A stretch of DNA of 23,566 bases, taken from IMG/VR virus record IMGVR_UViG_3300043446_002213, positions 1 to 23,566 of that record. One strand, given 5' to 3'. The position numbers were made by a program, and so were the translations under genes. This document shows, piece after piece, positions 4,169 through 23,069 of the stretch (positions are counted from its first letter, which is position 1; the number at the start of each line of letters is the position of its first letter). Below the pieces are notes generated by a model. The model was given only the letters and a program-made list of their open reading frames with translations. It searched no databases and was not told the DNA's origin. This DNA is from a virus.

Positions 4169-4293
4169 TGTATAGAGTTTATTATTACATTTACAACAGC
4201 GTACATTCAAAAGATTTTCCTAGCCTAGAAGATGCATTTAATTTCTGGGCTAGGTTGCCCTTTGAAACATTTAGAGAGTTAATTAGATTATGA
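4168..4293 (+). CDS. Small hypothetical protein (41 aa)
   Basis: ATG at 4168 overlaps the TGA of the BI-1 gene, and its own TGA (4291-4293) overlaps the ATG of the next gene, so it fills the gap between two genes exactly. The product is 41 residues (start MYRVYYYIYNSVHSKDFPSL), aromatic-rich, with no membrane segment and no family that I recognise. The ATGA junctions on both sides suggest translational coupling and support it being real. Confidence 0.65.
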   Translation: MYRVYYYIYNSVHSKDFPSLEDAFNFWARLPFETFRELIRL

Positions 4294-5126
4294 GAAATAA
4301 TTATTGGACTTGTTCAAAATTCGCTGATTGGGTACGTGGTACTACAAAACTTAAGATGGGTACCTCAGAGCAGTGGCACGAATGGGAATCTCGAGCAAAG
4401 AAAGATTATCCATTGCGCTGGTGGTTAGCCGAAGAAGGCCTCGACTATCTACAAAAATTTATCATGTGGCCTTTGGATAAACTATATGCTGTCAAATATT
4501 ATATCAACAACAGATTTATTAGTCGCACTCATAGCCTTACCGCTCATCCCCGGGATATTAAACCTGGCCAGTGGCAAGACGTGGGGAACCGCTTTTTGCC
4601 TTGCTTATTCAACGAGCTTGTTGATTTTGTTGAAGTGGAGTTAGCATGGTGGCACCTTGCTTGGGCAGACGCTGATGAAAAAAAGAAGTATAACGCACCG
4701 TGGTGGCGTTTTGGTTGGTGGAACATTAGGCTCTGGCGTTGCCCACAGGCTGGTCTCGACAATCTCGAATGGCAACGTAATCTACGTTGGAAAGAAGACG
4801 AGTGCGTTGAAGGTAGCCCTAATGTGGGAAAACTTACTCCGCAAGCAGAAAAGGCGCAAGAAATCTTAGACTTGTACAAGTGGTGGACTGAAACATATCG
4901 CAACCGTCCCGATCCACACGATGCTAGCGGATGGAGTGCTTACTGCGATGCTCTTAGAAATGAGAATGGTGATCGTTGGATTGGAATCGATCCAAAAGAT
5001 CCTAAACTTAAAAAGCAAGGTGACAAAGCTCACAAACTACTTCAAAAGATTGAAGCGGCCTATGAAAAAGAAGACGAAGAAATGATGATTCGTCTTATTA
5101 AAGTTCGTCATGGACTATGGACATAA
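4290..5126 (+). CDS. Tryptophan-rich hypothetical protein (278 aa)
   Basis: No known fold is recognisable. About 23 of 278 residues are tryptophan (around 8%, several times the usual share), many as WW pairs (RWW, AWW, PWW, GWW, KWW). The first third includes a hydrophobic, aromatic stretch (about 50-75), the centre holds most WW pairs, and the C-terminus is a charged helix (about 235-270). There is no signal peptide. It starts at an ATGA junction and overlaps the next gene by 10 bases, so it belongs to the early operon. WW-rich proteins may bind stacked bases, glycans or membrane interfaces; the function is unknown. Confidence 0.85.
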   Translation: MRNNYWTCSKFADWVRGTTKLKMGTSEQWHEWESRAKKDYPLRWWLAEEGLDYLQKFIMWPLDKLYAVKYYINNRFISRTHSLTAHPRDIKPGQWQDVGNRFLPCLFNELVDFVEVELAWWHLAWADADEKKKYNAPWWRFGWWNIRLWRCPQAGLDNLEWQRNLRWKEDECVEGSPNVGKLTPQAEKAQEILDLYKWWTETYRNRPDPHDASGWSAYCDALRNENGDRWIGIDPKDPKLKKQGDKAHKLLQKIEAAYEKEDEEMMIRLIKVRHGLWT

Positions 5127-5362
5127 GTTGGAGATTTGTTCGATCCAAAGGAAGGCGCACGTGGATTGCTGAGGTATGGAGTGATGATTCGGATCTTGCT
5201 CCTCCTCATATTGGGTTCAACGAACCTTACCCAGAAGAAGTTTATTCAGAAATTAATCAATGGTGCTTGGAAACATTTGGGTACCATGCCCGTACTGCCT
5301 ATAACATTTTTGAATTTAAGAAAAAGTCAAACTTAGACTGGTTCATACTGCGCTGGCAATAA
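5117..5362 (+). CDS. Small hypothetical protein (81 aa)
   Basis: An 81-residue soluble protein, also rich in aromatic residues (SWRFVRSKGRRTWIAEVW at the start, LDWFILRWQ at the end). Its ATG lies inside the last 10 bases of the preceding gene with no clear ribosome site, so translation is probably coupled. I do not recognise a family. It is the last gene before the glycan-type island, which starts 20 bases later behind its own AGAGGA site. Confidence 0.7.
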   Translation: MDISWRFVRSKGRRTWIAEVWSDDSDLAPPHIGFNEPYPEEVYSEINQWCLETFGYHARTAYNIFEFKKKSNLDWFILRWQ

Positions 5363-5382: not shown

Positions 5383-6774
5383 ATGAGCGCAGAAATTGAT
5401 CGCATTAAAAAAGTAATCAAAATTACTAACGAAATTAGTCCAACATTCTGTTTGGCTAAATGGCACCATACTAGCATATACCTACATACTGGCCAAACAC
5501 ACAGTTGCTATCATCCAAGACCGCACGAAATTCCCTTAGAAGAAATTAAGTTTAATCCGGCGGCCTTACATAATACTCCTGAAAAGAAAAAAGAACGTGC
5601 CTTAATGCTTGTTGGTGAGAAGCCAAAAGGCTGTCAGTACTGTTGGAACGTAGAAGGACTTAGTGATACGCACATTAGCGACAGGCACGATCGAAATGCT
5701 AACATTTATAAACCAGAACGTTTAGAAGAAATCAAAAATAGTCCTTGGGACTTTAACATCAATCCAGAATACATAGAACTGGCATTTAGTAACGAGTGCA
5801 ATTTTAAGTGTGGTTATTGCCATCCTATGAGCTCAAGCAGTTTCCAAAGCGAAATTAAAAAGCACGGTCCGTACAATACTGTTAAAAATCATACATTGAA
5901 TATTGAGTGGTTCAATCCTTATCAAGAAGATGAAAATCCCTACATTGATGCATGGTGGAGATGGTGGCCAGAAGTTAGTAAAACTTTAAACATTTTACGC
6001 ATTACAGGTGGCGAACCCTTAATGCATAAGAGTACTTGGCGGTTGTTTGATAACTTGCGTCAGGAACCTCGTCCTTATTTAGAACTTAACCTAAACAGTA
6101 ATTTAGGAACCACAACAAGACATGTAGAAAAACTTGTTGAAAATGTAAACGACTTAGTTAGCAATAATAAAGTTAGAACATTTAAACTATTTTCAAGTAT
6201 GGATACTTGGAATAAACGTGCAGAATACTTGCGTACAGGATTAGACGTAGATTTGTGGGAAAAGAATTTAGATGTATATCTAACAGGAACTAAACTTCCA
6301 ATTAGCATCATGTGTACATTTAATATTTTAAGTGTTACATCATTTATAGACTTCCTTGAAAAAGTTTTAGAATGGCGTAGGAAATATCAACCGTTACTAA
6401 ACCCCGATGGTTACGGTAGACGTATTAGATTTGATACTCCTTATCTAAAAGAACCTCTACAGTACGACATGTTAATTTTACCAAAGGAAGAATTTTTACC
6501 TTACTTTGATAAAATTTTAAAATTTATTAATGACAATAGAGACGAAACTGATCCTACAAAATTTACCGATATGGAGTATGAAAAGTTTCGTAGGGTTCGT
6601 GATTACTTTGCTACAGCAAGTTACGATGAAGCAAGAGTCAAAGAAGGTCGTAAAGATTTTTATAACTGGTTTACGGAATATGATCGTAGGCGCGGCGTGA
6701 ATTTCTTAGAAACATTTCCTGAAATGGCAAATTTCTGGGAACTATGTAAATCACAAGGTGCGCCTAATGAATGA
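5383..6774 (+). CDS. Twitch-domain radical SAM protein, copy 1
   Basis: A 463-residue radical SAM enzyme. CNFKCGYC (Cys139, 143, 146) is the CxxxCxxC motif that binds the SAM [4Fe-4S] cluster, and TGGEPLM (near 208) is the SAM-binding GGE motif. Before the core lie four more cysteines, Cys23, Cys42 (SCYHP), Cys84 and Cys87 (CQYC), enough for an auxiliary cluster in an N-terminal twitch domain. All four, and the start of the core, recur at the same positions in the paralogue at 15021, except that the SAM cysteines there lie two residues earlier. The family is known in marine phages and bacterial glycan clusters, but the substrate is unknown. A good AGAGGA site precedes the ATG; it opens a 12-gene island of overlapping or abutting genes. 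Confidence 0.9.
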   Translation: MSAEIDRIKKVIKITNEISPTFCLAKWHHTSIYLHTGQTHSCYHPRPHEIPLEEIKFNPAALHNTPEKKKERALMLVGEKPKGCQYCWNVEGLSDTHISDRHDRNANIYKPERLEEIKNSPWDFNINPEYIELAFSNECNFKCGYCHPMSSSSFQSEIKKHGPYNTVKNHTLNIEWFNPYQEDENPYIDAWWRWWPEVSKTLNILRITGGEPLMHKSTWRLFDNLRQEPRPYLELNLNSNLGTTTRHVEKLVENVNDLVSNNKVRTFKLFSSMDTWNKRAEYLRTGLDVDLWEKNLDVYLTGTKLPISIMCTFNILSVTSFIDFLEKVLEWRRKYQPLLNPDGYGRRIRFDTPYLKEPLQYDMLILPKEEFLPYFDKILKFINDNRDETDPTKFTDMEYEKFRRVRDYFATASYDEARVKEGRKDFYNWFTEYDRRRGVNFLETFPEMANFWELCKSQGAPNE

Positions 6775-7501
6775 ATTAAGTGATATCTTTTCAACTAATA
6801 TATTCGAAAGCTGTGAAGATTTTAAACTAGGCCAGCCATTACCAATGGCTGTTATCGATGATTTCCTTCCTGTAACCGTTGCATTAAATCTGTATAAGGA
6901 AAGCAATAGCATACCTGACTCGTATTGGACTAAATTTACACGCAACGGCAGTCATATGAAAGAGTGTAAAAATCTTTCAGTCGCTCCTAATGCGTTCAAC
7001 CTAGTAGCATACTTACATAGTTCATACGCTCTTAGACATTTAGAAAAGATAACAGGCATAGAAAAGTTAATCCCAGACCCACATTTAGTAGGTGCAGGTT
7101 ATAGCAAAAGCAGTAACGGTGACACACTAAAGATCCACAACGATTTTAACTGGAATGAAGAACTACAGTTACACCGTGCATTATCTTTAATCATTTATAT
7201 CTCTCCAGAGTGGAAAACAGAATGGGGTGGTGCTCTTGATTTTTATGATAACAAACGAGAACAAGTGATACGATCTGTTGACTGCATTTTTAATCGTTGT
7301 CTCATTTGGCAGTACAACAAATACGGGTTTCATGGCTATGAAAAACCAATAGCATGTCCTGAAGATCAATACAGGGCAACATTTAGATTATTTTACTATA
7401 CTAGTAATTCTACTCATAACCCCGAGGATCCACCGCATAGGAGTCAATATTGGTTTGATCCTACTACAGGTAGTCCATACGATATACGAGAACAAAAATG
7501 A
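6767..7501 (+). CDS. 2OG-Fe(II) oxygenase, copy 1
   Basis: A 244-residue non-heme iron dioxygenase of the prolyl-4-hydroxylase-like superfamily, expected to hydroxylate or otherwise oxidise a substrate with 2-oxoglutarate and O2. The iron facial triad is visible: His124-x-Asp126 (KIHNDF) and His189 (GFHGY), with Arg203 (QYRATFR) placed to bind 2-oxoglutarate. WGGALDFYD (about 153-161) is a typical core strand. I chose ATG 6767, behind AAGG, rather than a GTG three codons earlier; it overlaps the radical SAM stop. It is followed by a glycosyltransferase-like gene at an ATGA junction, a pair repeated at 10101-12223. Confidence 0.88.
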   Translation: MNELSDIFSTNIFESCEDFKLGQPLPMAVIDDFLPVTVALNLYKESNSIPDSYWTKFTRNGSHMKECKNLSVAPNAFNLVAYLHSSYALRHLEKITGIEKLIPDPHLVGAGYSKSSNGDTLKIHNDFNWNEELQLHRALSLIIYISPEWKTEWGGALDFYDNKREQVIRSVDCIFNRCLIWQYNKYGFHGYEKPIACPEDQYRATFRLFYYTSNSTHNPEDPPHRSQYWFDPTTGSPYDIREQK

Positions 7502-8754
7502 TTTATGTAAGTACAGAAGCAGACCATCCGTTCTTTGTAGAATTTAAAAATATAAAGGATGCTAAACTAGAACCAGAATCAGTTTACTGGCACGATCAAC
7601 ATGATCATCATATGAGGAATGTGTCGTTTGAAGACTTTTTAGACGAAATACATTGGGATCATATACGCAGAGATCCTACTGCCAAAATTTTATTGCATTA
7701 TAGTGATGAGTATTTTAATATATTTGATTTAGAAATATATGTAAACACTATAAAGAAAAAACAAATTAATCCAGCACAAGTCTTTTTTATTGTAATCGAT
7801 GAAACATGGAAGACTTGGGTTATTGATGAGTTTAGAAAGAGAGGAGTAGTTGGTATAAATGTTACTGATTATAACTTGCTTTTAAAAAAATCTGTTAGCG
7901 TAAAAAAATTAGATCTCATTGATGTAGTTGCCAACGGAGATAGTATTAAGGGTTATTTTAAAAATCTATTATCAATTCCATTTATTCCAAAACCTGCGCC
8001 TGCAATAGAAAAAAAGTTTAGCGCATTTAGTAGAAGGTTTGACGAGTGGCGCCTGCAGTTGTTCACTGAACTTTACCTCAAGGGTTTATTAGATCAATTT
8101 AAGTATACATTCAATAATATTGATCCGTATGCTGGAGGTGTTGGATATAATAAAATAAGAACATACGAACACGATGAAATTTTTAAACTACTGGCAAGCA
8201 AAAACTATAATATAGGTAAATTAAAAAATTGGGTAGATAATATGCCCTATACTTTTCCAAAGATTGATGTAACACACAAGTGGAATTTAAGATCTAACGA
8301 GTGGATCGAAAACACTGCCTTTCATTTGTTAGTAGAATCACATTTCAATCCGTTTAATCATTTTGAAGAATACAAAGACAAGTATGGTCCAAGAGAATTT
8401 GCACCATCTCTTATAACAGAAAAAACATGGAAAGTTATTACATCAGCTAGACCGTTCATTGTTTTTTCAACACCATATTTTTTAGACGACATGAGAGCAT
8501 TGGGTTATAAAACGTTCCATCCTTTTATTGATGAATCGTACGATAAAATTGAAGACCAGTACGAACGACTACACGCAATAGTAAACGAAATTGAAAGATT
8601 GAACAACCTACCAAAAGATGAGTTTGACTATTCATTTAAAGAATGTTATAATATAGCGTTACATAATCAGAAAGTATGTGAAAAGTTAACCAAAAGGTTA
8701 GTGTATAAAGATGAATTTGCCTGGGTTAACCAGTATTTGCAAAAAGGAAAATAA
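7498..8754 (+). CDS. Glycosyltransferase-like protein, copy 1
   Basis: A 418-residue protein without a certain family. The C-terminal third has ITEKTWK (about 306-312), a hydrophobic strand ending in PFIVFSTP, and GYKTFHPFIDESYD (336-349). This order (a TEK motif, a strand, then an acidic loop) resembles the donor-binding half of GT-B enzymes such as the GT10 fucosyltransferase type, so a glycosyltransferase is likely but unproven. The last motif is nearly identical in the copy at 10880. The gene is AT-rich compared with its neighbours and joins the preceding oxygenase at an ATGA overlap. Confidence 0.6.
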   Translation: MIYVSTEADHPFFVEFKNIKDAKLEPESVYWHDQHDHHMRNVSFEDFLDEIHWDHIRRDPTAKILLHYSDEYFNIFDLEIYVNTIKKKQINPAQVFFIVIDETWKTWVIDEFRKRGVVGINVTDYNLLLKKSVSVKKLDLIDVVANGDSIKGYFKNLLSIPFIPKPAPAIEKKFSAFSRRFDEWRLQLFTELYLKGLLDQFKYTFNNIDPYAGGVGYNKIRTYEHDEIFKLLASKNYNIGKLKNWVDNMPYTFPKIDVTHKWNLRSNEWIENTAFHLLVESHFNPFNHFEEYKDKYGPREFAPSLITEKTWKVITSARPFIVFSTPYFLDDMRALGYKTFHPFIDESYDKIEDQYERLHAIVNEIERLNNLPKDEFDYSFKECYNIALHNQKVCEKLTKRLVYKDEFAWVNQYLQKGK

Positions 8755-9783
8755 ATGTCTAAAACAATTTTAGTAACGGGTGGAGCAGGATTTATTGCAC
8801 ATCACCTTATCGATAAACTACTAGCAGAAACTGACTATCGTATTGTTACCCTAGATCGATTAGACTACAGCGGTAATCTTAATCGCCTTAATGAAGTAGT
8901 AATGGCACATCCTGTACAAGAAAGAAAACGTGTTCGTGTTATTCATCACGATCTTAAAGCAGAGTTAAACTCGCAGATTCGTAGTCACATTGGTAAGGTA
9001 GATATGATTGCTCACCTAGCCGCTGGTAGTCATGTCGATCGTAGTATCAAGTATCCTATGGAATTCGTACAAGACAATGTTGTCGGAACTGTAAACTTAA
9101 TGGACTATGCTCGCAACCTAGACAATTTAGAATTGTTTGCTTACTTTAGTACAGACGAAGTGTTTGGTCCGGCACCGGATGGCATTAGTTACAAAGAAAA
9201 CGATCGATACAATTCAACTAATCCTTATAGTGCTAGTAAGGCGGCCGCAGAGGAAATGGTTGTAGCATACGAAAACACTTACGGGTTGCCTGCAATCATT
9301 ACACATACTATGAACGTGTTTGGTGAGAGACAGCACCCCGAAAAGTATATCCCAATGTGTATTAAACGTGTGCGTGACAATCAAAAAATTACAGTACACA
9401 GTAATCCAGAAAAGACCAAAGCGGGATCTCGCCATTACATTCATGCTCGAGATGTTGCTGATGCTCTCATGTTCTTATACAATTACGATCTAAGTAAACT
9501 GCCCACAACATATGGCGGTGCTAAATGTCAAAAGTTTAATATTGTCGGTGCTGAAGAATTTGATAACTTAGAGTTGGCACAGTTTATTGCGGACACACAA
9601 GGAAGACCACTTAACTATGAAATGGTTGATTTCCACAGTTCAAGACCAGGCCACGACTTGCGTTATGCGTTAGATGGTAGTAAAATGAAAGACATGGGGT
9701 GGACCCCGCAGCCGGTAAAGAAAAGACTTGCAGAAGTTATTAACTGGACTTTGGCTAACGATCGTTGGTTGGGAATTGAATGA
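8755..9783 (+). CDS. rfbB: dTDP-glucose 4,6-dehydratase-like nucleotide-sugar dehydratase
   Basis: A 342-residue extended short-chain dehydrogenase. A Rossmann start, TGGAGFIAHHL, lies at the N-terminus, although the third glycine of GxxGxxG is Ala15. STDEVFG places Thr133, Asp134 and Glu135 exactly where E. coli RfbB has its catalytic trio, and YSASK gives Tyr158 and Lys162. The enzyme would turn an NDP-hexose (dTDP-glucose by best analogy) into the 4-keto-6-deoxy sugar. A GDP- or UDP-sugar substrate is possible. AAAAAGGA precedes the ATG. This gene and the cytidylyltransferase fusion are the two clear activated-sugar enzymes of the island. Confidence 0.9.
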   Translation: MSKTILVTGGAGFIAHHLIDKLLAETDYRIVTLDRLDYSGNLNRLNEVVMAHPVQERKRVRVIHHDLKAELNSQIRSHIGKVDMIAHLAAGSHVDRSIKYPMEFVQDNVVGTVNLMDYARNLDNLELFAYFSTDEVFGPAPDGISYKENDRYNSTNPYSASKAAAEEMVVAYENTYGLPAIITHTMNVFGERQHPEKYIPMCIKRVRDNQKITVHSNPEKTKAGSRHYIHARDVADALMFLYNYDLSKLPTTYGGAKCQKFNIVGAEEFDNLELAQFIADTQGRPLNYEMVDFHSSRPGHDLRYALDGSKMKDMGWTPQPVKKRLAEVINWTLANDRWLGIE

Positions 9784-10100
9784 AACACGTAAGATTTGAA
9801 AACACAGGACGCCGAGGTTGGTTTGTTGGCGGTTTTCCCGAAGCCGCATTTCAAACTGACCTTGCGGAAGTATGTTATTGTACTGAGCCAGCTGGCACTG
9901 GTATTAGTCATTACCATACTGTTTGCACTGAAACTGTTTTTATAGTTTCTGGAAGAGTAACATGTCAAGGTAAAGAATATACTAGCGGAGACATCCTTGT
10001 ATTTGAACCCGGAGACATTAATGATTGTGTCTACGAAGAAGAAACTGTTATGATCGGAGTCAAAACTCCAGCAGGTAAGGATGATAAGGTATTGGTATAA
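9780..10100 (+). CDS. Small cupin protein
   Basis: A 106-residue single-domain cupin. Motif 1 is visible as SHYHTVCTETVFIVSG (HxH, then Glu and Gly) and motif 2 begins EPGDINDCVY, where the usual histidine is replaced by Asn or Cys. Such proteins include sugar isomerases, epimerases and metal-dependent dioxygenases. The gene overlaps the dehydratase stop (ATGA), as expected for a partner that acts on its 4-keto sugar product, for example a ketoisomerase or epimerase. That link comes from context, not sequence. Confidence 0.8.
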   Translation: MKHVRFENTGRRGWFVGGFPEAAFQTDLAEVCYCTEPAGTGISHYHTVCTETVFIVSGRVTCQGKEYTSGDILVFEPGDINDCVYEEETVMIGVKTPAGKDDKVLV

Positions 10101-10883
10101 ATGATTGTTAACTTAGACAAGATCAAGGATGCGTTTAGCACATTTCATAGTGCTGAACCTTTCCCCTATTGTGTAATTGATAATTTCTTTACAGACGAAA
10201 TTGCAGAACAATTAGCGTTAGAATTCCCTAACTCTGATTCAGATGTTTTTAATGGAAACTATTTTAATCAGATTGAAATTAAAAAGACATGCAATATCTG
10301 GGACCGATTCCCTGCTACTACATACAATGTCCTAACATATTTAAATAGTACAGAGTTTTTAGACATATTAAAACCATTAGTTAAACAAGATATCTTGTAT
10401 GCAGACCACGGACTTCACGGTGGTGGGTGGCATATACATCCACCTGGCGGCAAGCTAAATGTACATTTAGATTATAGCATTCATCCTAAGATGAAAAAGC
10501 AAAGAAACTATAACTTACTAGTTTATCTAAATCCTAACTGGCAAGAAGGATGGGGCGGAGAACTAGGACTATGGTCAGATAAAAATAACAAGCCCAGTGA
10601 GTTAGTTAAGGTCCTTGAACCTAAGTTCAATAGAGGAGTTATCTTTGACACAACCGCTAATAGTTGGCATGGTCTCGAAGTGCCTAATAGTTTTCCAGAA
10701 GGACAAGACCGTAAAAGTATTGCACTATACTATCTTACAGAACCCCCAACGAATGTTAATACTAGAGGTAGAGCCCTTTTCTCCCCAAGTAAAGAACAAG
10801 AAAACGACCCTGAAGTACTAGAATTGATCAAAAGAAGATCTCAAGTATCCGCAGGAGATGTATCAACATGGAGTCGTTCATGA
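10101..10883 (+). CDS. 2OG-Fe(II) oxygenase, copy 2
   Basis: A 260-residue dioxygenase of the prolyl-4-hydroxylase-like type. The iron ligands are His122-x-Asp124 (VHLDY) and His190 (SWHGLEVP); Arg204 (DRKS) should bind 2-oxoglutarate. WGGELGLWSD marks the jelly-roll core. An extra glycine- and histidine-rich run, HGLHGGGWHIHPPGGK (about 103-118), precedes the HxD and is absent from copy 1, so the substrates probably differ. It starts directly after the cupin stop. Like copy 1 it is followed by a glycosyltransferase-like gene, so oxidation and transfer may be linked steps. Confidence 0.88.
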   Translation: MIVNLDKIKDAFSTFHSAEPFPYCVIDNFFTDEIAEQLALEFPNSDSDVFNGNYFNQIEIKKTCNIWDRFPATTYNVLTYLNSTEFLDILKPLVKQDILYADHGLHGGGWHIHPPGGKLNVHLDYSIHPKMKKQRNYNLLVYLNPNWQEGWGGELGLWSDKNNKPSELVKVLEPKFNRGVIFDTTANSWHGLEVPNSFPEGQDRKSIALYYLTEPPTNVNTRGRALFSPSKEQENDPEVLELIKRRSQVSAGDVSTWSRS

Positions 10884-12223
10884 ACTTTGTATTTGAAAAT
10901 TTAGAAACACTTGAAAATTTTGTAGAATGCCCTGATAAAAATCCATCAGGTGTGAGAAGATTTACACCTAGTCCGTTAGTTATTACCATGGTAAGGTATC
11001 ACCAGACTAACGAAAAATTTAAAAATATGGATTTTAAAAACATAGCTATCAGCAATGATCCTAGAAAATTTGAAAGATATGGAATAGCATCCGGAGTAAC
11101 ACATGCACCTCACGATTGGTGCGGACCCGATACACAAGGAAATGGATTTGATAAGAATTTTGCAGATCGAAAATCTTTATTTGAATTTCTCAGTCCTGTT
11201 TATCTAACAGACCTTAGAACAGGTAAAGCAACTTTACTATTAGATCAGAGTCACGAAGGCTATCACGCTGATTGGTTATTTGATTGGTTTCATAATAGCT
11301 GTGAATTTTACAAAATTAATCCTACACAAATTATTTACATAACAGGCGATATGGATGTGTATAGAAAATATTCGCTGTGGTGTGACGAAAAGAATTTAAC
11401 AGATAGAATGTGTGTTGTACCATATGCACACTTTGAAAATGCTGTTTTTACAAATGATAACAATAGGACGACAATCTTTAACCTAGGCCGTAATCCAAAC
11501 TTCAACGACCAGTACAAGTATAAAAAGAAAAACTTGAACAAAATTAAAACATTTAATGCTTTACAGAAACGCCCTAGAGCACATAGAATGTGGCTGTTTA
11601 AAGAACTGTGCCTAAATAATCTTTTAGAAAATAGTATTAGTAGTATGAATTGGTTTAAGTGGAGCCATACATTCTACATGAATAAAACTATGAACATAGA
11701 GGACTACGAAAATATTATAGGGTTAACTCCAATGCTTCCACCTAATGCTACAGGAAAATACAAAGAAGAGTTAGATGTGTTTGCGAGCGGTGACAGTGGA
11801 AAGTATCAAATGGAATTTAATTCACAAATAACATTAGATACATGGTTTAGTGTAATCAGCGAAGCGTCGTTTGGTGAAGACACTTGCTTCATTAGTGAAA
11901 AAACTTTTAAACTAATCTGTGTTCATCATCCATTTATTATTTTTGGAAATAAGAATTCGTTACACTATTTGCGAGAACTAGGATACAAAACATTCCACCC
12001 ATATATCGACGAATCATATGATACATTAGAGTGTTGGGAAAGATTAGATGCAATTATCAATAGCATTAAAAAAATAAATGCTATACCACAAGAAGAAAAG
12101 CTAGACTGGTTTTTAGGCATGAAGGACATTTTAGAGCATAACTATAAAGTTATGAAGCGCAACTCTTTAGACAATGCTCCGCAATCTATGATAACAATTA
12201 AAGAATATTTTCAGGAAAAATAA
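10880..12223 (+). CDS. Glycosyltransferase-like protein, copy 2
   Basis: A 447-residue relative of the protein at 7498. The shared C-terminal block holds ISEKTFK (about 338-344), PFIIFG and GYKTFHPYIDESYD (368-381); the N-terminal halves differ widely, as expected if acceptors differ. A GT-B-like transferase is the best guess. The start is uncertain: ATG 10880 forms the ATGA junction usual in this island and has GGAG 6 bases upstream, while ATG 10868, in frame, has AGGAG 10 bases upstream. The next gene follows without a gap. Confidence 0.6.
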   Translation: MNFVFENLETLENFVECPDKNPSGVRRFTPSPLVITMVRYHQTNEKFKNMDFKNIAISNDPRKFERYGIASGVTHAPHDWCGPDTQGNGFDKNFADRKSLFEFLSPVYLTDLRTGKATLLLDQSHEGYHADWLFDWFHNSCEFYKINPTQIIYITGDMDVYRKYSLWCDEKNLTDRMCVVPYAHFENAVFTNDNNRTTIFNLGRNPNFNDQYKYKKKNLNKIKTFNALQKRPRAHRMWLFKELCLNNLLENSISSMNWFKWSHTFYMNKTMNIEDYENIIGLTPMLPPNATGKYKEELDVFASGDSGKYQMEFNSQITLDTWFSVISEASFGEDTCFISEKTFKLICVHHPFIIFGNKNSLHYLRELGYKTFHPYIDESYDTLECWERLDAIINSIKKINAIPQEEKLDWFLGMKDILEHNYKVMKRNSLDNAPQSMITIKEYFQEK

Positions 12224-13243
12224 ATGTATAGAAAACAAATAGCTGAAATTAACGAAAGCATCAAGACAACTAAGAAGGCTATTATATCCCTTGGCTGTTC
12301 TTTTGTTCAAGGACAAGGGGCAGTTAATCCAGAATTATACGAAGAATACAAATGGAACTATGACGGACTTGGTGTTCCTCTTTATCTCAAACTTCCCGAA
12401 AAAGAAGAAAAAGAATTACTAAAGAAGTATCCATTAGTTACTAAACAAGGCGACGAGCTGTTTTTTAGATTCATGGAATACGAAAATGCTTTTGTCAATG
12501 TATTGTGTAAAAAATACTTCAATGGAGAATATACTCCTATTAACTTAGGTCTAGCAGGATGCGGAAACAGAGGAACAATTAAAGAACTGTATTTCTATCC
12601 AGAGGTTAACTGGAACCAGCTTGAAGAAATTATAGTTATTTACTGCCCAAGTGGTCCGGAACGATTTGACTTTATCAACGACCAGTGGATAGATCACGGT
12701 CATTGGTTATGCATGTGGCCGCATTATAAAGATAAAGAAGACGGCCCTCGCAAGAATTTATGGAAGGGATACAGCGATTGCGTCTACTCTGAAAAGTTTG
12801 AGGTGCTAGAACAAATTGCACATATACAAGAATTGATGTTATGGTGCAAGTATCATAATGCAAAACTAATAATCACTCCGGGCTTTGATAGAAGATACGA
12901 AAAAGACTACTTTAAAGCTTCTCTTAAAAAAGTTATAAATCGTTCTTCAGAAGGAACTGTATTAAAGCATGGAACTATTTTTCCATTAGACTTTGGACAG
13001 AAAGAAAATATTAATAAAATAATGGAATTGTGGCCCTGGGATAGTATGTTTAAACCAGATGGCTACGAAACGTTTGCTGATTTATGTGTAGCACAAGAAA
13101 AGGTTAAAGACGATCATTTCTTTAACTACTTAGGAGCAGGGTCTCCTAATGGATGGATAACCGCATGTGCTCATCCTACTGCAAAAGGCCATGACTTATT
13201 TGCTAAAATATTACATAACCATATTACTAAAAACAAAAAATGA
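12224..13243 (+). CDS. SGNH hydrolase-like protein, copy 1
   Basis: A 339-residue protein of the SGNH/GDSL esterase type. Block I is SLGCSFVQG with Ser26, block II/III is seen in NLGLAGCGN (Gly and Asn), and block V in TACAHPTAKGHDLF with His317. The aspartate usually three residues before that histidine is Ala314, so the Ser-His pair remains but the Asp is missing or supplied elsewhere. Such enzymes add or remove acyl groups on sugars. There is no signal peptide, which favours a cytoplasmic role in glycan building. AGGA precedes the ATG, and it overlaps the second SGNH gene at ATGA. Confidence 0.75.
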   Translation: MYRKQIAEINESIKTTKKAIISLGCSFVQGQGAVNPELYEEYKWNYDGLGVPLYLKLPEKEEKELLKKYPLVTKQGDELFFRFMEYENAFVNVLCKKYFNGEYTPINLGLAGCGNRGTIKELYFYPEVNWNQLEEIIVIYCPSGPERFDFINDQWIDHGHWLCMWPHYKDKEDGPRKNLWKGYSDCVYSEKFEVLEQIAHIQELMLWCKYHNAKLIITPGFDRRYEKDYFKASLKKVINRSSEGTVLKHGTIFPLDFGQKENINKIMELWPWDSMFKPDGYETFADLCVAQEKVKDDHFFNYLGAGSPNGWITACAHPTAKGHDLFAKILHNHITKNKK

Positions 13244-14142
13244 GAATCACACGAGTAAAAGAAACTGTAGGAACAATCACAGCAGACGATCCTGAAATGA
13301 TCGAATCGTTTCGATTACGCAGTCCTGTTGTTGCAAAAAATCCAATCGACTTAAAGTATTATTCTAATTATTACAACGGTAATACTGATCAAGGATCAAT
13401 GCCGAGTCCAGGAGTTCATAAATTTCTAAACGGTAACGAGCGGGCACAGGCTAACCCAGACTATAAAGATTTTAGTTATTTCATAAACGATATAGGTTTT
13501 AGAGACCAATATCCTCCAAAAGAAACACAAGGGATATTTGGTTTCTTTGGATGCAGTATGACATTAGGCGAGGGTTTAGATACGGTTGATAATTTTCCGC
13601 ATCGCGTATCTAAGCATTTTAACAAACAACATTTAAATCTTGGTTTGCCTGGTATCGGTGCATACAGGATTGCATTAATTTTTGCGGCGGCGGCAAATGT
13701 TTGGAATATAGAAACCGCGGTAGTTACCTTTCCTAACTGGGCAAGATTCCACTATGTTGACACTAAAAACAACATGAAACTGATTCATTTGCCTTATAGC
13801 ATAGATAACAAGGAATGCGAAATTGTTAGAAATGACATCTTAAATGATTTTTCTGACCAGTATATGTTATCAGCTACCAAGGATGCAATAAATTATATTC
13901 TTATGGTTGCAAAATTAAAAAATATTAATTTAGTTTTATCTGCTTGGGACCCTGATGTTAGTAGAATTATAGAAGCAATCACAGGATATGATGTTCCTAA
14001 ATACAACCTATGGAATCCTTTTAAGGAAAGGATACCTGGAGATTTTGCCAGAGACTATATACACCCAGGAGTCAACATTGTTGATACCTATGTAGAAAAA
14101 CTTAAAGACACAATCAATAGAAAACACTATGTCAGACTCTAA
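13240..14142 (+). CDS. SGNH hydrolase-like protein, copy 2
   Basis: A 300-residue SGNH-type protein. Block I is FGCSMTLGEG with Ser106, block II is LGLPGIGAYR (Gly, but no Asn at the third-block position that I can see) and block V is RDYIHPG with Asp272 and His275 in the classic DxxH spacing. About 95 residues precede the serine, more than usual, and include a sugar-esterase-like aromatic region. It lies in tandem with copy 1 but is only distantly similar, so it is not a recent duplicate. A glycan acyl esterase or acyltransferase is likely; the substrate is unknown. Confidence 0.75.
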   Translation: MRITRVKETVGTITADDPEMIESFRLRSPVVAKNPIDLKYYSNYYNGNTDQGSMPSPGVHKFLNGNERAQANPDYKDFSYFINDIGFRDQYPPKETQGIFGFFGCSMTLGEGLDTVDNFPHRVSKHFNKQHLNLGLPGIGAYRIALIFAAAANVWNIETAVVTFPNWARFHYVDTKNNMKLIHLPYSIDNKECEIVRNDILNDFSDQYMLSATKDAINYILMVAKLKNINLVLSAWDPDVSRIIEAITGYDVPKYNLWNPFKERIPGDFARDYIHPGVNIVDTYVEKLKDTINRKHYVRL

Positions 14143-15028
14143 ACAATTAACCATTGTTATAGTAACTTACCACGGAGACTTTCCATTACTGGAAAGATGC
14201 CTAACTTCCTTTGAAAAATATATAAATCTAGATCAAGTTAAGGCTATTAAAATTATCCTTAACGATCTTCCTATATACACAAACGCATTGCAGAGTATTA
14301 TAAACAAGTATACTAATTTAAAACTTGAATTAGTTTCGTCTGCAACATTAGAACCGGTTATTACAGAATATTTTAATTGGAATACACAACAACTTTTTAA
14401 GCTTCTAGCCTGTAATGTAGTTGATACTGAGTGGTACTTAATACACGACTGCAAAGATTATTATGTCAAGCACGTAGACTTCTTTAAAGACTGTTTTACA
14501 GATGACGGCAGAGCTATCACAAAATTAGATCACACACAGTATAGTGATTATAACAGACACGGGGGAGGATTTTTGCCCTTCAACCTGGCTTATGAAATTG
14601 CCTGTAATGTCTGGGGTATTAGCAGACAAGATACTGCCATCTGGCATTTGCCCACTGTAACACCGTTCTTTGTTAAAACAGATACAATGAAAGGTATGGT
14701 GCGTGAATTAAAATCTATGATAAGAGGGTTCTTTCCTTACCTATTTAATCTTGCTATAAATGAGCAACGTGTAGCAACTGAATTTTTACTTTATAGTGCA
14801 TACTGTTTTAGTAAGAACCAATTAGCTGACTATGCTGACTGGAGTATTAATACTGCCTATTATAGTAAATTAAAACAATCAAAGGATCTAAGAATTTACT
14901 TCCCACCTAATCCACAAGAAAATGAAAAATATTTTCATAACGGACAGATTTGGCAATTTAATGAAGGTACTTGGAAGCCTGCTGTTGCTACACATGTTTC
15001 TTATACAGAGGAAAAGTTAGATGAGTAA
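14129..15028 (+). CDS. GT-A-like glycosyltransferase (putative)
   Basis: A 299-residue protein whose N-terminus, TIVIVTYHGDFPLLERCL (about 8-25), is the usual first strand and turn of family-2-like GT-A transferases. An acidic DCKD (107-110) after WYLIH is in the right place for the DxD metal site. The C-terminal half (about 170-260) is helical and has a WGISRQDTAIWHLP block. It overlaps the SGNH gene by 14 bases and the second radical SAM gene by 8. Donor and acceptor are unknown. A DUF6492-type assignment is possible. Confidence 0.65.
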   Translation: MSDSKQLTIVIVTYHGDFPLLERCLTSFEKYINLDQVKAIKIILNDLPIYTNALQSIINKYTNLKLELVSSATLEPVITEYFNWNTQQLFKLLACNVVDTEWYLIHDCKDYYVKHVDFFKDCFTDDGRAITKLDHTQYSDYNRHGGGFLPFNLAYEIACNVWGISRQDTAIWHLPTVTPFFVKTDTMKGMVRELKSMIRGFFPYLFNLAINEQRVATEFLLYSAYCFSKNQLADYADWSINTAYYSKLKQSKDLRIYFPPNPQENEKYFHNGQIWQFNEGTWKPAVATHVSYTEEKLDE

Positions 15029-16532
15029 CTACAACCAAGCGGCAGACATCGCAGAACATCAACTAAAATTTATTAGCAAATCAATGTGCTATGCTAAGTG
15101 GGCACAAGTGTCTATGCACCTTACTAATGGCATGACACAGAGTTGTTACCATCCGCCGCTACATAAAATAGATACTGCACTATTAAAAGAAAATCCCAGC
15201 GCATTGCATAACACCGATCAAAAAAAGCAAGAGCGTAAAATGATGTTAAAGGGCGACCGCCCAGCAGGGTGCGAGTATTGTTGGAAAATTGAAGATGTAG
15301 GCGGAAGAAGTGATAGAATTTATCGTTCAGGAGAATACTGGGCACAAAATGCTAGACTAGATATATTTGAAGCCATAGATACTGGCAACGTAGATCCGCG
15401 ATATGTTGAGGTTAACTTTAATCAAGCCTGTAATTTTAAATGTATGTATTGCAGTCCGCACCTGTCAACTGCATGGGAAGATGAAGTAGAAAAATTTGGA
15501 CCTTACGAAGTACTAAACTCGTCTGGACAATTAACAGAACACAACAACATCAATGCACTAAAGAGCAGTGGTTTCATGCCTCTAAAAGTTAGGCAAGATG
15601 AGAACCCATACGTAGAAGCATTCTGGCGTTGGTGGCCTCAGTTGTATAAAAAATTAGAAGTATTGCGTATGACAGGCGGAGAGCCGCTTATGGATGTCAA
15701 CACATTTAAGGTGCTAGACTATATCTATCAGCACCCAAATCAATGGTTAGAAGTAAGTGTAACTACTAATATGTGCCCGCCTAAGCCGGAACTGTTTAAC
15801 AAGTTTATTGATAGTCTAAAAAAATTAGAAGAAATACAAATATGGGAAGATAAAGAACGATTCAATCCTGGATCCGGTAATCACTGGTACGTAAACATGG
15901 CTGTTAAAAATTTTGCTGTGTTTGTTAGTTTAGATAGCGTAAGTGATCAAGCTGAGTATATTCGATCGGGTTTAGATTACACAACCTTACAAAAAAATGT
16001 AACACATTTATTAGACGACACTTGCAATACTACGCTGACCTTTATCAATACATTTAATGCTTTAAGTGTTCCTAAGTTCAAGGATTTTTTAAAATACATA
16101 CTAGAGCTTCGCACAAAGTATAATCGTCAAGCTCAGGGTATCAAATATATCCCAATTCACGATCCATACCATACACATCCAGATCACCAAGTACATCCAA
16201 GACAACGTGTATGGTTTGACGTACCTTTGTTAAGGAATCCTGCTTGGCAAAATATACATATATTGCCTGAAGAGTTTGAACAGTATTTAGATGATGCTAT
16301 TAAGTTTATGGAAGATAATTTCGAAATGGGGAACTTTGATGGCTTTTACGATTTTGAAATTGAAAAAGTAAAAAGAAATTTAAAAATTATGAAGGAAAGA
16401 AATCCTAATCAAACTATTAACAGAAAAAATTTCGTAAATTACTTCCAAGAGTATGATCGTAGAAAGAACACTAATCTAGTAAAAACCTTCCCAGAATTAG
16501 AAAATGTTTATAACGATTGGAGAAAAATATGA
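15021..16532 (+). CDS. Twitch-domain radical SAM protein, copy 2
   Basis: A 503-residue paralogue of the protein at 5383. The SAM-cluster cysteines are Cys137, 141 and 144 (CNFKCMYC) and TGGEPLM is conserved. The N-terminal cysteines Cys23, 42, 84 and 87 are at exactly the same positions as in copy 1, which supports a second iron-sulfur cluster. About 40 extra residues lie in the middle and near 365-390, including a histidine-rich HDPYHTHPDHQVHP segment that copy 1 lacks and that may bind metal. The C-terminal YDRRKNTNLVKTFPE also matches copy 1. Divergence suggests two different radical steps in one pathway. Confidence 0.9.
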   Translation: MSNYNQAADIAEHQLKFISKSMCYAKWAQVSMHLTNGMTQSCYHPPLHKIDTALLKENPSALHNTDQKKQERKMMLKGDRPAGCEYCWKIEDVGGRSDRIYRSGEYWAQNARLDIFEAIDTGNVDPRYVEVNFNQACNFKCMYCSPHLSTAWEDEVEKFGPYEVLNSSGQLTEHNNINALKSSGFMPLKVRQDENPYVEAFWRWWPQLYKKLEVLRMTGGEPLMDVNTFKVLDYIYQHPNQWLEVSVTTNMCPPKPELFNKFIDSLKKLEEIQIWEDKERFNPGSGNHWYVNMAVKNFAVFVSLDSVSDQAEYIRSGLDYTTLQKNVTHLLDDTCNTTLTFINTFNALSVPKFKDFLKYILELRTKYNRQAQGIKYIPIHDPYHTHPDHQVHPRQRVWFDVPLLRNPAWQNIHILPEEFEQYLDDAIKFMEDNFEMGNFDGFYDFEIEKVKRNLKIMKERNPNQTINRKNFVNYFQEYDRRKNTNLVKTFPELENVYNDWRKI

Positions 16533-17284
16533 GAAAGATTGTTTTAGTTACAGGAGGATTTGACCCCTTACACTCCGGACATATTTCTTACTTCAAAGAA
16601 GCGCGAGCACTAGGTGACATGTTGATTGTCGGTATCAACAGTGATGCTTGGCTTGAGCGTAAAAAGGGCAGAGCATTCATGCCCTGGAAAGAACGCTACA
16701 TGATTGTGAGTAAGATCAAGTATGTTGATCAAGCTACATATTTCAATGACGAAGACGGTAGTGCTGTGGCGTTTATTGAAGACATGAAACAACAATATCC
16801 CAATGACGAAATCATCTTTGCCAACGGTGGTGATAGAACCGCTACAAACATTCCAGAGATGGTATGTAAGGATGTGGTCTTTAAATTCGGAGTCGGCGGT
16901 GAAGATAAATCTAACAGTAGTAGCTGGATTCTTGACGAATGGAAGGCTCCTAAAACAGAAAGACCGTGGGGTTACTATCGAATTATTCACGAAGTTCCAG
17001 GAACCAAAGTTAAAGAACTTACTATTGACCCTGGACAAAAGCTCAGTTTGCAAAAGCACTTTAAAAGAAATGAATTTTGGTTTGTAACACACGGTGCTTG
17101 TGACGTTGTTAGCTGTTTGAGTAACGGCTACATGATGCCTGTAGTGCTACTCAAAGAACACCTACACCATTTTGTACCAAAAGGTGAATGGCACCAAATT
17201 CGAAATCCGTACCAAATTCCTTGTAAAATTGTAGAAATCCAATTTGGCGAGCTGTGTGACGAGTCAGATATTGAGCGTAGATAA
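16529..17284 (+). CDS. Cytidylyltransferase fused to phosphomannose-isomerase-type cupin
   Basis: A 251-residue two-domain protein. Residues 1-130 are a nucleotidyltransferase like RfaE/HldE and glycerol-3-phosphate cytidylyltransferase: GGFDPLHSGH with the HxGH pair His15 and His18, then GINSDAW. Residues 141-251 match the C-terminal cupin of type II phosphomannose isomerases: RPWGYYR, SLQKH (His177), Glu182, WHQIRNP (His222) and a GELCDESDIER end. One usual metal histidine (second of HxH) is Lys179, so isomerase activity may be altered. ATG 16529 has GGAG 6 bases upstream and an ATGA overlap; an in-frame TTG at 16517 is less likely. The island's activated-sugar supply probably passes here. 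Confidence 0.88.
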   Translation: MRKIVLVTGGFDPLHSGHISYFKEARALGDMLIVGINSDAWLERKKGRAFMPWKERYMIVSKIKYVDQATYFNDEDGSAVAFIEDMKQQYPNDEIIFANGGDRTATNIPEMVCKDVVFKFGVGGEDKSNSSSWILDEWKAPKTERPWGYYRIIHEVPGTKVKELTIDPGQKLSLQKHFKRNEFWFVTHGACDVVSCLSNGYMMPVVLLKEHLHHFVPKGEWHQIRNPYQIPCKIVEIQFGELCDESDIERR

Positions 17285-18567: not shown

Positions 18568-18602
18568 ATGGATAAATACTCAAAAGAGAGTGTTTATCCA
18601 TG
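18568..18602 (+). promoter_or_regulatory. Start-codon-masking hairpin with late promoter motif
   Basis: Bases 18568-18581 (ATGGATAAATACTC) and 18588-18601 (GAGTGTTTATCCAT) form a 14-bp stem, 13 Watson-Crick pairs and one G.T, with a 6-nt loop. The 3' arm ends in the first two bases of the ATG at 18600. The 5' arm contains GATAAATA (18571-18578), one base from TATAAATA and followed by C as in late promoters. Late RNA would start near 18585 and so lose the 5' arm. The structure is seen; the function is inferred. Confidence 0.65.
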
Positions 18603-20063
18603 GACTCATTACAAAATAGCATTAATCAATTAATACAATCAGCATTAGAAAATTCTGCTGGCAATTTTAAGCACACTGGCGACTTATTAATTAACGGAAC
18701 TCTTACTGTTGATACTGTAAATGTTAATAATTTAATTACAGAACATGGTAATTTAGCCAATCCCGGAAACTGGGTAACTATAACAGAAGACGAGTTAAGC
18801 GGCAAAGGATTTAGTTGGACATGGGGTGACGGCGGTACAAAGTTATTGTACAGAGACGGCAATAGACTTTGGACCAGCGGAGACTTTGATCTAGGATCTA
18901 ACAAGTCTTACAAAATTAATAATGTACCTGTGTTGTCTGCAAGCGAGCTTGGCCCGCAGGTCACAAAAAGTAAACTTAGAGAGCTAGGAACATTAAACAG
19001 TTTAACAGTTTCTGGCGATGCAACTATTTCTGATTTTGCAGTTTTTAACAGCACAGTAAATCGATTAGGTCTAGGAACAGATCAGCCCAATGCAATCCTA
19101 AGTATTTTAGACAACGGGATTGAAATTGTAACGGGTGCGGCAGGTAACAATCTAGCCTGCTTTGGTACGTTTACTAATGATAGTTTAGAAATTATTACTG
19201 ATAATACAACTCGCGTTACATTCAAGAATGATGGCGAAGTTATTTTTGGCAATGAATCTACTAAGACTGCTAACGTAACTGTCTACGGAACCCTCAAAGT
19301 AGAAAATTTATTAACTGATAATAGATTAGATCGATACAGTTCTTTAGAGTTTAAAGCATCAACTGGTAGAACAGAGTATGGTTTAGGATTAACTTGGACC
19401 GGTACAGGCAACAGTAAAAACTTCCTACTAATGCCTGATCCAAGTAGATTGTGGTCTAGCGAAAGTTTAGAACTTGCAGAAGAAAAATCTTTTTACATTA
19501 ATGGTTCTGAAGTATTGAGTAAAAATGCTCTTGGCACTAATGTCACTAAATCTAATCTAGCTACATTAGGCACTTTAGAATCGTTAAGCGTACAAGGCGA
19601 AGCTACGTTCTTTGGAGATGTTAATGCATCTCACAACCTATTAAGAGCAAAAAATATTGTACTTGATGCGTACAGTAATAGGCTATCAATTACCAACTTA
19701 GGTGTTGATTCTAGTGAATCGTTCAGTATTAAAATTGACAACGACGAAGCACTACACGCAGATAAACATTCTATAAGTATTGGTAATAAAAACAATAATA
19801 GAAAACCAGTTAAGGTATTTGGTCCATTAAGTATCGGCGCAAGCAATCCCGATCCAGATGCTATGCTCAGTGTTAACGGAGACGTTATACTAGGCGGCAA
19901 GAAATTTACCAGCGGTACATCAGCACCAGTGACAGGAAACGGCACTCAGGGAGATATATGCTGGAATTCAAATCCTCAACCTAATAGTTACGTTGGCTGG
20001 ATCTGTATTTCAAGCGGTGCTCCTGGTGCATGGATGCCGTTTGGAATGATTGTAAACCGTTAA
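18600..20063 (+). CDS. Tail-fibre-like structural protein with internal duplication
   Basis: A 487-residue Gly/Ser/Asn/Thr-rich protein of the kind found in phage tail fibres and whiskers. It begins with a short helix (1-20), then has short repeated elements: INGTLTVDT (31), VYGTLKVEN (228) and VFGPLSIG (406). A long unit recurs: WTWGDGG to LTVSGDAT (about 73-142) and LTWTGTG to LSVQGEAT (about 264-336), each with RLW, a YxIN element and a TKS-LxxLGTL-SL element. The C-terminus (GTQGDICWN, then GWICISSGAPGAWMPFG) is typical of receptor-binding fibre ends. GAGAG lies 9 bases before the ATG. It may be a substrate of the neighbouring glycan island (inference). Confidence 0.82.
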   Translation: MDSLQNSINQLIQSALENSAGNFKHTGDLLINGTLTVDTVNVNNLITEHGNLANPGNWVTITEDELSGKGFSWTWGDGGTKLLYRDGNRLWTSGDFDLGSNKSYKINNVPVLSASELGPQVTKSKLRELGTLNSLTVSGDATISDFAVFNSTVNRLGLGTDQPNAILSILDNGIEIVTGAAGNNLACFGTFTNDSLEIITDNTTRVTFKNDGEVIFGNESTKTANVTVYGTLKVENLLTDNRLDRYSSLEFKASTGRTEYGLGLTWTGTGNSKNFLLMPDPSRLWSSESLELAEEKSFYINGSEVLSKNALGTNVTKSNLATLGTLESLSVQGEATFFGDVNASHNLLRAKNIVLDAYSNRLSITNLGVDSSESFSIKIDNDEALHADKHSISIGNKNNNRKPVKVFGPLSIGASNPDPDAMLSVNGDVILGGKKFTSGTSAPVTGNGTQGDICWNSNPQPNSYVGWICISSGAPGAWMPFGMIVNR

Positions 20064-20529: not shown

Positions 20530-21081
20530 ATGACTTGGATCATTGATAAAACATTTGAATTCTGCTACGGTCACAGAGTTCATACACAAACATTAAACGG
20601 CGAATATGCCGCTGACCTAAAATGCGCTTGTCGCCATTTACATGGACACGAGGGCAAAATGCAAGTATTCCTTACAGCGCCAAAACTAGATAACACTGGT
20701 ATGGTAACTGACTTTAGACACTTAGAATGGCTAAAGAAATGGATTAACGAATATATTGATCACCAATTTATTATTGACAAGAATGACCCACTTTACTTTA
20801 AAATTATCGGCGATAGACCGTTGGTTCCTGTTTTGGTCCCTAACACTGAACATGTCGCTGGTTGGCATTTGGATCTTAGCGGACTGGAGCCAAACACACC
20901 TGAGTACGAGTACTATGAAGGATTTATGGTTGTGGACTTTGTTCCTACCAGTGAGCATCTTTCTTCTTGGATGGCGGAGCTTGTCCAAAGTAAAATGAAA
21001 GCATTAGGTGTAACTGTTCAGCGTATCGAATGGTGGGAGACACCTAAATCACGCTCGGTATTTTATAGAGATGGTGTATGA
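20530..21081 (+). CDS. queD: QueD / 6-pyruvoyl-tetrahydropterin synthase-like protein
   Basis: A 183-residue member of the PTPS/QueD family, which makes 6-carboxytetrahydropterin on the way to 7-deazaguanines (queuosine, or deazaguanine DNA bases in phages) or acts on pterins. Zinc ligands are His15 (YGHRVH), His38 and His40 (HLHGH), with Cys34 in the CxxxHGH motif. Further family features are TDFRHLEWLK, DHQF (Asp77-His78), PTSEH (140-143) and Glu170 near the end. Bacterial QueD has about 120 residues; here some 45 extra lie between 85 and 130. AAAAGGG lies 6 bases upstream of the ATG. No other que or dpd gene is in the window. Confidence 0.9.
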   Translation: MTWIIDKTFEFCYGHRVHTQTLNGEYAADLKCACRHLHGHEGKMQVFLTAPKLDNTGMVTDFRHLEWLKKWINEYIDHQFIIDKNDPLYFKIIGDRPLVPVLVPNTEHVAGWHLDLSGLEPNTPEYEYYEGFMVVDFVPTSEHLSSWMAELVQSKMKALGVTVQRIEWWETPKSRSVFYRDGV

Positions 21082-21218: not shown

Positions 21219-21375
21219 TTTTTGGCGACTTTGGGCCAAGGCGTTAGGCGAAAAATCAGGTAATTCGGACGCAGAAGCGGACCGAATTGCTTGGATTCGT
21301 ACAGTAATTGTGTTAATATACATTATCACAAACTTTTTTATTGTAGCAGGCGTCATAAGGCATTGGAATGATTAA
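21205..21375 (+). CDS. Small single-pass membrane protein (56 aa)
   Basis: The product has 56 residues: a charged N-terminal part (about 1-30, including KALGEKSG) and one strong hydrophobic helix (about 33-50), then a short tail RHWND. It starts inside the preceding gene and its stop overlaps the ATG of uvsE (ATGATTAA). Similar small one-helix proteins occur in T4-like phages of aquatic bacteria to my knowledge, with unknown function. The membrane segment is a direct reading of the sequence. Confidence 0.72.
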   Translation: MIKSNFWRLWAKALGEKSGNSDAEADRIAWIRTVIVLIYIITNFFIVAGVIRHWND

Positions 21376-22916: not shown

Positions 22917-23069
22917 TAGCTAAATATTATCAACAAATAGTCAAGAGCCAATTTACCCGTAGTCGCAAAATGCTACCTGAACTTTTAAACTTGCCGAAAC
23001 TGGGAAAAAGCAAGCATCAGGGTCCTTGGATGCCCAGTTGACCTCTTGACAGAGTATTTACTAAAGTAT
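22917..23069 (+). other. Intergenic region with inverted repeats and a 23-codon frame
   Basis: It separates divergent genes. Seen: ACTGGG with CCCAGT (22999-23038 region) enclosing GCATC with GATGC; CTTGC with GCAAG; and a short plus frame 22970-23041 (start MLPELLNLPK, 23 residues) that lacks a ribosome site. TTGACA at 23046 has no well-placed -10 box. It may be a structured leader or small RNA for the gene at 23070; no known RNA family is recognised. Confidence 0.35.

Follow-up and report, generated by a model that had tools for sequence, protein, structure and literature searches.

A gene cassette that opens and closes with a radical SAM gene of the N_Twi_rSAM family recurs in the stereotyped order rSAM1-[2OG-GT]-SDR-GT-SGNH-SGNH-rSAM2 in 25 dereplicated phage contigs and at least two genomic settings. 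In the window analysed here (the whole stretch of 23,566 bases of the IMG/VR virus record IMGVR_UViG_3300043446_002213), the cassette is part of a twelve-gene island inserted beside a fibre gene. The island is probably hotspot cargo encoding a modular pathway by which a nucleotide-activated sugar is made, chemically edited and transferred.

Phage background and layout of the island

The window, a fragment of a T4-like phage, matches a section of a 67-kb contig of the same collection at 99.87% identity. The T4 major capsid family Gp23 was found in 8 of 12 related contigs tested, which places the backbone group among the T4-like phages; the Gp23 gene was absent from the 67-kb contig of the window's own virus, a fragment as well. 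When the entire window was compared with 50,697 phage records at the nucleotide level, no match was obtained.

Upstream of the island, a ClpP-like protease, DNA ligase, MazG and a Bax1-I family membrane protein of the phage backbone (3470-4168) are encoded, together with two conserved phage ORFs on the plus strand (4290-5126 and 5117-5362). Downstream lie the genes of a conserved phage protein (17340-18554, plus strand; phrog_11903, 5.7e-61) and a tail-fibre-like virion protein (18600-20063, plus strand; phrog_6002 virion structural, 2.8e-16; phrog_23059 tail fiber, 3e-5), and backbone genes of the QueD/PTPS (20530-21081), UvdE (21368-22390) and Fe/Mn superoxide dismutase (23046-23564) types.

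The island itself (5383-17284) consists of twelve plus-strand ORFs, with an overlap of 4-17 bases or an exact abutment at every junction. The initial annotation had described a continuous, overlapping twelve-gene run with two radical SAM enzymes, two oxygenases, a 4,6-dehydratase, two SGNH proteins and a cytidylyltransferase-isomerase fusion, and both the layout and the domain and motif matches agree with it. Its placing of the island before a fibre gene was correct as to direction, with the gene of the 404-residue phrog_11903 protein lying in between. Purifying constraint was strong (pN 0.02-0.23 versus pS 0.65-0.82). None of the 12 island proteins had a 19-residue hydrophobic stretch above 1.7 (Bax1-I control, 2.8); lacking likely membrane segments, they probably act in the cytoplasm.

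Radical SAM enzymes

The left and right boundaries of the cassette are formed by rSAM1 (5383-6774) and rSAM2 (15021-16532), both on the plus strand. By profile score they are members of N_Twi_rSAM (NF033640), with 309.5 and 308.3 bits at a curated cut-off of 170 bits; they differ from this family in nothing, and its name gives no reaction. Pfam Radical_SAM matched both, rSAM2 with a score below the Pfam cut-off. Seven cysteines are invariant in each enzyme (Cys23, 42, 84, 87, 139, 143 and 146 of rSAM1 in 24 homologues; seven of rSAM2 in 21 homologues), of which three belong to CxxxCxxC and the other four to an N-terminal auxiliary-cluster domain. Peptides are frequent substrates of radical SAM enzymes of the SPASM/twitch type, a point against a sugar substrate.

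The radical SAM enzymes are the most constant part of the island, with 84-87% and 79-82% identity to the loci L003 and L004, compared with 46-47% for the glycosyltransferase GTb and 52-53% for the fibre protein. Across cassettes, mean identity was 67% for the radical SAM enzymes, 42% for the glycosyltransferase and 41% for the SGNH protein SG1. In 14 control genomes, zero N_Twi_rSAM members scored over the cut-off.

Head-to-tail arrays of N_Twi_rSAM paralogues were observed in two T4-like phage contigs, about 12 in IMGVR_UViG_3300027749_000040 (G008; 54497-70076, loci L278-L279) and about 10, in the same order, in 3300032323_001214 (G007; 108312-120216). In both, fibre-like genes precede the array and SGNH-like and carbamoyltransferase-like ORFs follow it. 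The window's own virus has a second region upstream of the window's stretch (IMGVR_UViG_3300046804_001743 (G001), 1-21030, locus L250), which is dense in radical SAM-like, 2OG-like and SGNH-like ORFs and includes three N_Twi_rSAM genes.

Sugar-nucleotide genes

The gene deh (8755-9783, plus strand) encodes a predicted nucleotide-hexose 4,6-dehydratase, an RmlB-type SDR of the dTDP-glucose 4,6-dehydratase kind (TIGR01181, 2.4e-73, below cut-off), in which the TDE and YxxxK residues of 4,6-dehydratases are present, the latter as YSASK. It is followed by cup, for a small cupin (9780-10100, plus strand; Cupin_2, 1.5e-4, below cut-off; phrog_24762, 4e-19). CTcup, at the end of the island (16517-17284, plus strand; alternative ATG start possible at 16529), is a fusion of a nucleotidyltransferase (CTP_transf_like, PF01467, 5.4e-14) to a type II phosphomannose-isomerase-like cupin (MannoseP_isomer, PF01050, 4.2e-24), with the HSGH and cupin metal-site residues in place. 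A recent transfer of deh had been suspected from its higher G+C content and 98% protein identity to locus L005, and was rejected because nucleotide identity was only 84% (dS 1.48, dN 0.025).

Oxygenases, glycosyltransferases and SGNH proteins

OG1 (6758-7501; PF13640, 3.2e-12) and OG2 (10101-10883; PF13640, 1.7e-17), both on the plus strand, are putative 2OG-Fe(II) oxygenases matching 2OG-FeII_Oxy_3, and the metal site of HxD and distal His is kept (conserved H127, D129 and H192 in OG1). Both are followed by putative glycosyltransferase genes on the plus strand, GTa (7498-8754) and the cassette-core gene GTb (10868-12223); OG2 and GTb are directly adjacent in the window, L005 and L104. The two glycosyltransferases are paralogues, about 25% identical with common invariant motifs, and matched no family in Pfam, NCBIfam or PHROGs.

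Sequence searches of the PDB with profiles of the glycosyltransferase, SG1 and SG2 gave no useful match (nothing for the glycosyltransferase; weak matches only, to GDSL enzymes, for SG2), and structure prediction was therefore employed. The AlphaFold model of GTb, built from an alignment of 33 sequences (pLDDT 91.5), shows a predicted GT-B fold. Its leading PDB matches were GT-B enzymes, namely trehalose-6-phosphate synthases, a fucosyltransferase and PglA; fucosyltransferases were weak fold matches (7yro, 8e-4; 2nzy, 8e-3) ranked behind the trehalose-6-phosphate synthases. R240, E344 and K345 of GTb are invariant and may correspond to the nucleotide-binding R, E and K of a GT10-type inverting, fucosyltransferase-like GT-B enzyme.

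SG1 (12224-13243, plus strand; pLDDT 92.1), also a member of the cassette core, shows an SGNH fold in its predicted model, as of an esterase or acyltransferase; a carbohydrate esterase was the top PDB match, followed by the acetylxylan esterase Axe2 and TesA-type GDSL hydrolases. Query-normalised TM-scores of the GTb and SG1 models were low (0.3-0.4) and speak for the fold, not for a substrate. SG2 (13240-14142, plus strand) is a second putative SGNH protein, with a GCS nucleophile block and an ARDxxHP block conserved in 18 homologues. A DUF6492 protein (14129-15028, plus strand; PF20102, 4.6e-12, over cut-off) completes the set. Of three glycosyltransferase-like proteins in the initial annotation, two are thus GT-B-type paralogues by motif and model; the third is this DUF6492 protein, whose glycosyltransferase nature we infer only. 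For none of the core enzymes is a characterised homologue near enough to tell the substrate.

Locus L005, the closest relative by the interior genes OG2 and GTb, has a different ORF of 249 residues (9669-10418) in place of OG1-GTa, which shows replacement of a module between rSAM1 and deh.

Recurrence of the cassette in viral contigs

Relatives of rSAM1 were found in at least 597 stretches of viral contigs and relatives of rSAM2 in 172; for each, 80 loci were kept. Both occur together in 33 contigs, 25 after dereplication at 90% rSAM1 identity. In all 25, the cassette runs along one strand from rSAM1 to rSAM2, and a GT gene is present in 23, an SGNH gene in 24 and an SDR gene in 21. The commonest form is rSAM1-SDR-GT-SGNH-SGNH-rSAM2, to which an additional OG-GT pair is added in 10 of the 25. 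Most forms are without CTcup, the small cupin, OG2 and DUF6492, so that the core is shorter than the island. In other contigs, the cassette has a different setting and stands beside ORFs resembling genes for glycosyltransferases, carbamoyltransferases and sugar dehydrogenases (assigned by eye).

Across contigs, correlated protein distances were obtained for rSAM1, rSAM2, GT and SG1 (r 0.49-0.77, with 0 to 4 of 2,000 permutations as high), as would be expected of a unit inherited together; shared phage phylogeny could contribute. A search for syntenic clusters had been proposed with the initial annotation, and in these 25 contigs the genes proved to be linked and ordered, not scattered.

Every cassette oxygenase (11/11) has a glycosyltransferase encoded directly after it. 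This paired order suggests that the oxygenase prepares an acceptor for the adjacent transferase, and it would also suit maturation of a peptide or protein, in which the radical SAM enzymes and oxygenases modify a phage protein such as the fibre or a neighbour and the transferases glycosylate the hydroxylated residues in the manner of RiPP pathways. The auxiliary-cluster domain with four invariant cysteines in both radical SAM enzymes is in line with such maturation, as is a resemblance of OG2, short of the cut-off by a wide margin (2.2e-10), to the cyclophane-peptide oxygenase YhhC. RiPP clusters, however, comprise a precursor peptide and an RRE (PqqD); no PqqD/RRE domain was matched by the window genes searched, and the dehydratase and nucleotidyltransferase require a role in sugar metabolism. 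A precursor hidden inside the island is ruled out, as the overlapping or abutting genes leave no intergenic room for it. We consider peptide or protein maturation quite improbable and prefer the sugar pathway.

The insertion slot beside the fibre gene

The slot between the 4290-5362 genes and the phrog_11903 gene, near the ligase, MazG and ClpP genes, was surveyed in 58 loci anchored on the phrog_11903 protein, several of them from the same virus. In 13 of the 58 the slot is empty, its two edges adjoining at distances of -11 to 63 bp; a single radical SAM gene occupies it in 12. Elsewhere it holds runs of radical SAM genes, radical SAM and SGNH genes, an rSAM-SDR-GT-SG1 set, or full islands up to the 12 kb of the window, and those slot genes that have an annotation encode, among others, more radical SAM enzymes, an Asp/Asn hydroxylase and a UDP-sugar dehydrogenase. 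The phrog_11903 gene is kept with or without the island. The fibre gene is likewise kept where the slot is empty, so decoration would not be essential to the fibre. The varied content marks the slot as a cargo hotspot beside the fibre gene. A presence/absence comparison of relatives, also suggested at the outset, bore out that the island comes and goes as a block in this slot.

With a slot content that ranges from nothing to 12 kb, the genes might be cargo without a fixed pathway, serving Fe-S or general metabolism or merely filling the head. There are precedents for such views: the T4-like genome TARA_ERS488813_N000010, with 12 radical SAM genes, was discussed in terms of Fe-S cluster biology (PMC5332604), and 'stuffer DNA' was raised for the LPS genes of cyanophages (PMC3037559). 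The former resembles the island's phages in being T4-like and rich in radical SAM genes, but was not framed as a GT/SGNH cassette (PMC5332604). Strong purifying selection, the constant order in 25 contigs and the co-varying distances argue against cargo of this kind, which we regard as very improbable.

Distribution beyond the cassette contigs

Among the 50,697 phage records, rSAM2, GTa and GTb had no match, and the sole records matched by rSAM1 were Vibrio phages K566 and K567. These resemble the island in having radical SAM enzymes encoded by three of four successive genes, but similarity to rSAM1 is limited to 28% identity over residues 109-325, without the N-terminal domain, and no GT or SGNH partners are annotated. 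Jumbo 'moraphages' were considered as the phage lineage and set aside, as the paper on them makes no mention of radical SAM (PMC12619734).

Of 144 Bdellovibrionota genomes, 35 carried rSAM1-like genes (E <= 1e-60); of 349 Pseudomonadota genomes, a single one did, and this is a phage-like contig. Members of the cassette's GT family were present in 3 and 2 of these genomes, respectively. A bacterial source of the cassette was rejected, since the Bdellovibrionota loci examined do not contain the phage cassette and Pseudomonadota have nearly no such genes; no host is identified thereby. The Bdellovibrionota relatives of rSAM1 adjoin GT2 genes (L260, L264, L270) or an SGNH gene (L266), and in L264 the relative directly follows a gene with weak similarity to PqqD. 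With these mixed neighbours, including the PqqD-like gene, the peptide reading keeps some probability.

Two further observations were made in Bdellovibrionota. In L266 the SGNH gene, whose product has a hydrophobic stretch at its N-terminal end, overlaps the rSAM1 relative, and these two genes mirror the pairing seen in the phages. At locus L288 (G106:C34:190369-190773) a GTb-family gene adjoins UDP-sugar dehydrogenase-like and radical SAM-like ORFs.

Proposed function and comparison with known systems

For an operon that unites a 4,6-dehydratase, a nucleotidyltransferase-cupin fusion of the sugar type, GT-B enzymes and SGNH proteins resembling carbohydrate esterases, a role in sugar metabolism is the most economical reading. 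The steps are assigned from gene families; what they are fitted to is the observed content, order, constraint, recurrence as a unit and slot swapping, and the predicted folds of GTb and SG1. A keto-deoxy NDP-sugar would come from CTcup and the 4,6-dehydratase, together with the small cupin. The radical SAM pair may then modify this sugar, or its carrier, by radical chemistry such as epimerisation, dehydration or deamination. Each 2OG oxygenase could provide a hydroxyl usable by the glycosyltransferase encoded directly after it, the DUF6492 protein may add another unit, and the SGNH pair would set the O-acyl groups. The coherent sugar-type pathway of the initial annotation is thereby supported by gene content, linkage and order in relatives. 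Its description as self-contained was too strong, for no kinase/mutase, flippase, polymerase or initiating transferase is among the 12 island genes, and the core cassette is shorter still.

Should the pathway reading be right, decoration of a virion fibre protein has a nearly even chance of being its purpose and a host surface glycan is a somewhat less probable target; this marginal preference for the virion comes only from the missing membrane proteins and the location. In the host-surface case, the pathway would draw on lipid carriers and flippases of the infected cell to alter its O-chain or capsule, and superinfection would be blocked or progeny set free. A role at the host surface has been offered for the glycosyltransferases in pelagimyophage host-recognition clusters (HRCs; PMC7029224) and for LPS genes in marine phages (PMC5332604). 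LPS gene clusters are reported for the larger cyanophage genomes and for cyanophages P-SSM2, S-SM2 and S-SSM7 (PMC3037559), and deh is 69% identical to the sugar gene SSM2_191 (T4-GC 265) of the S-SM2 cluster. O-antigen and capsule loci, however, encode a flippase, polymerase or initiating transferase, whereas the island has none of these and no other membrane protein, and the phage SGNH proteins are without the N-terminal hydrophobic stretch of the bacterial SGNH protein in L266. Host-surface editing appears somewhat unlikely.

The general kind of system is already known. Pelagimyophage HRCs, as described in the sections of that report considered here, combine glycosyltransferases and radical SAM cassettes in T4-like phages and resemble the island in being hypervariable, rich in glycosyltransferases and associated with tail-fibre genes (PMC7029224). 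They lie between VrlC and gp14 with a mean size of 44.6 kb, whereas the slot extends from the 4290-5362 genes to phrog_11903, and those sections mention no constant gene order with a radical SAM gene at either end (PMC7029224). No VrlC or gp14 gene was recognised in either the window or the 67-kb contig, both of which are genome fragments. The cyanophage LPS clusters are likewise sets of sugar-nucleotide and transferase genes in T4-like phages (PMC3037559). P-SSM2, S-SM2 and S-SSM7 share a set of seven LPS gene clusters, whereas the overlap of the island with S-SM2 is limited to deh (GC 265) and a nucleotidyltransferase (GC 304) at a distant 32% identity, and no gene in the S-SM2 stretch examined is annotated as radical SAM. 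The statement in the initial annotation that no described pathway corresponds to the island consequently needs narrowing: T4-like HRCs and dehydratase-containing LPS clusters are described, and it holds for the rSAM-bounded cassette and its slot, of which no description was found in the open-licence literature. The phage records searched contain no close relatives of the core genes of the cassette.

A wider proposal, which we judge unlikely as it stands, is that aquatic T4-like phages run an exchangeable radical-SAM glycochemistry, in which bounding pairs or arrays of N_Twi_rSAM enzymes (up to about 12), 2OG-GT pairs and SGNH proteins would build a sugar not known from cells and the radical SAM set would choose its structure.

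Glycan genes next to phage fibre genes are known, and most accounts treat their chemistry as copied from host LPS pathways. The present cassette is most constant in its two radical SAM enzymes and nearly absent from the sampled Pseudomonadota genomes, which points to a phage-specific sugar chemistry at the layer of phage-host contact. Its constant ends and variable interior provide a testable model for changes of decoration by cassette swapping, and it gives N_Twi_rSAM, a large family without known reaction, a consistent biochemical context.
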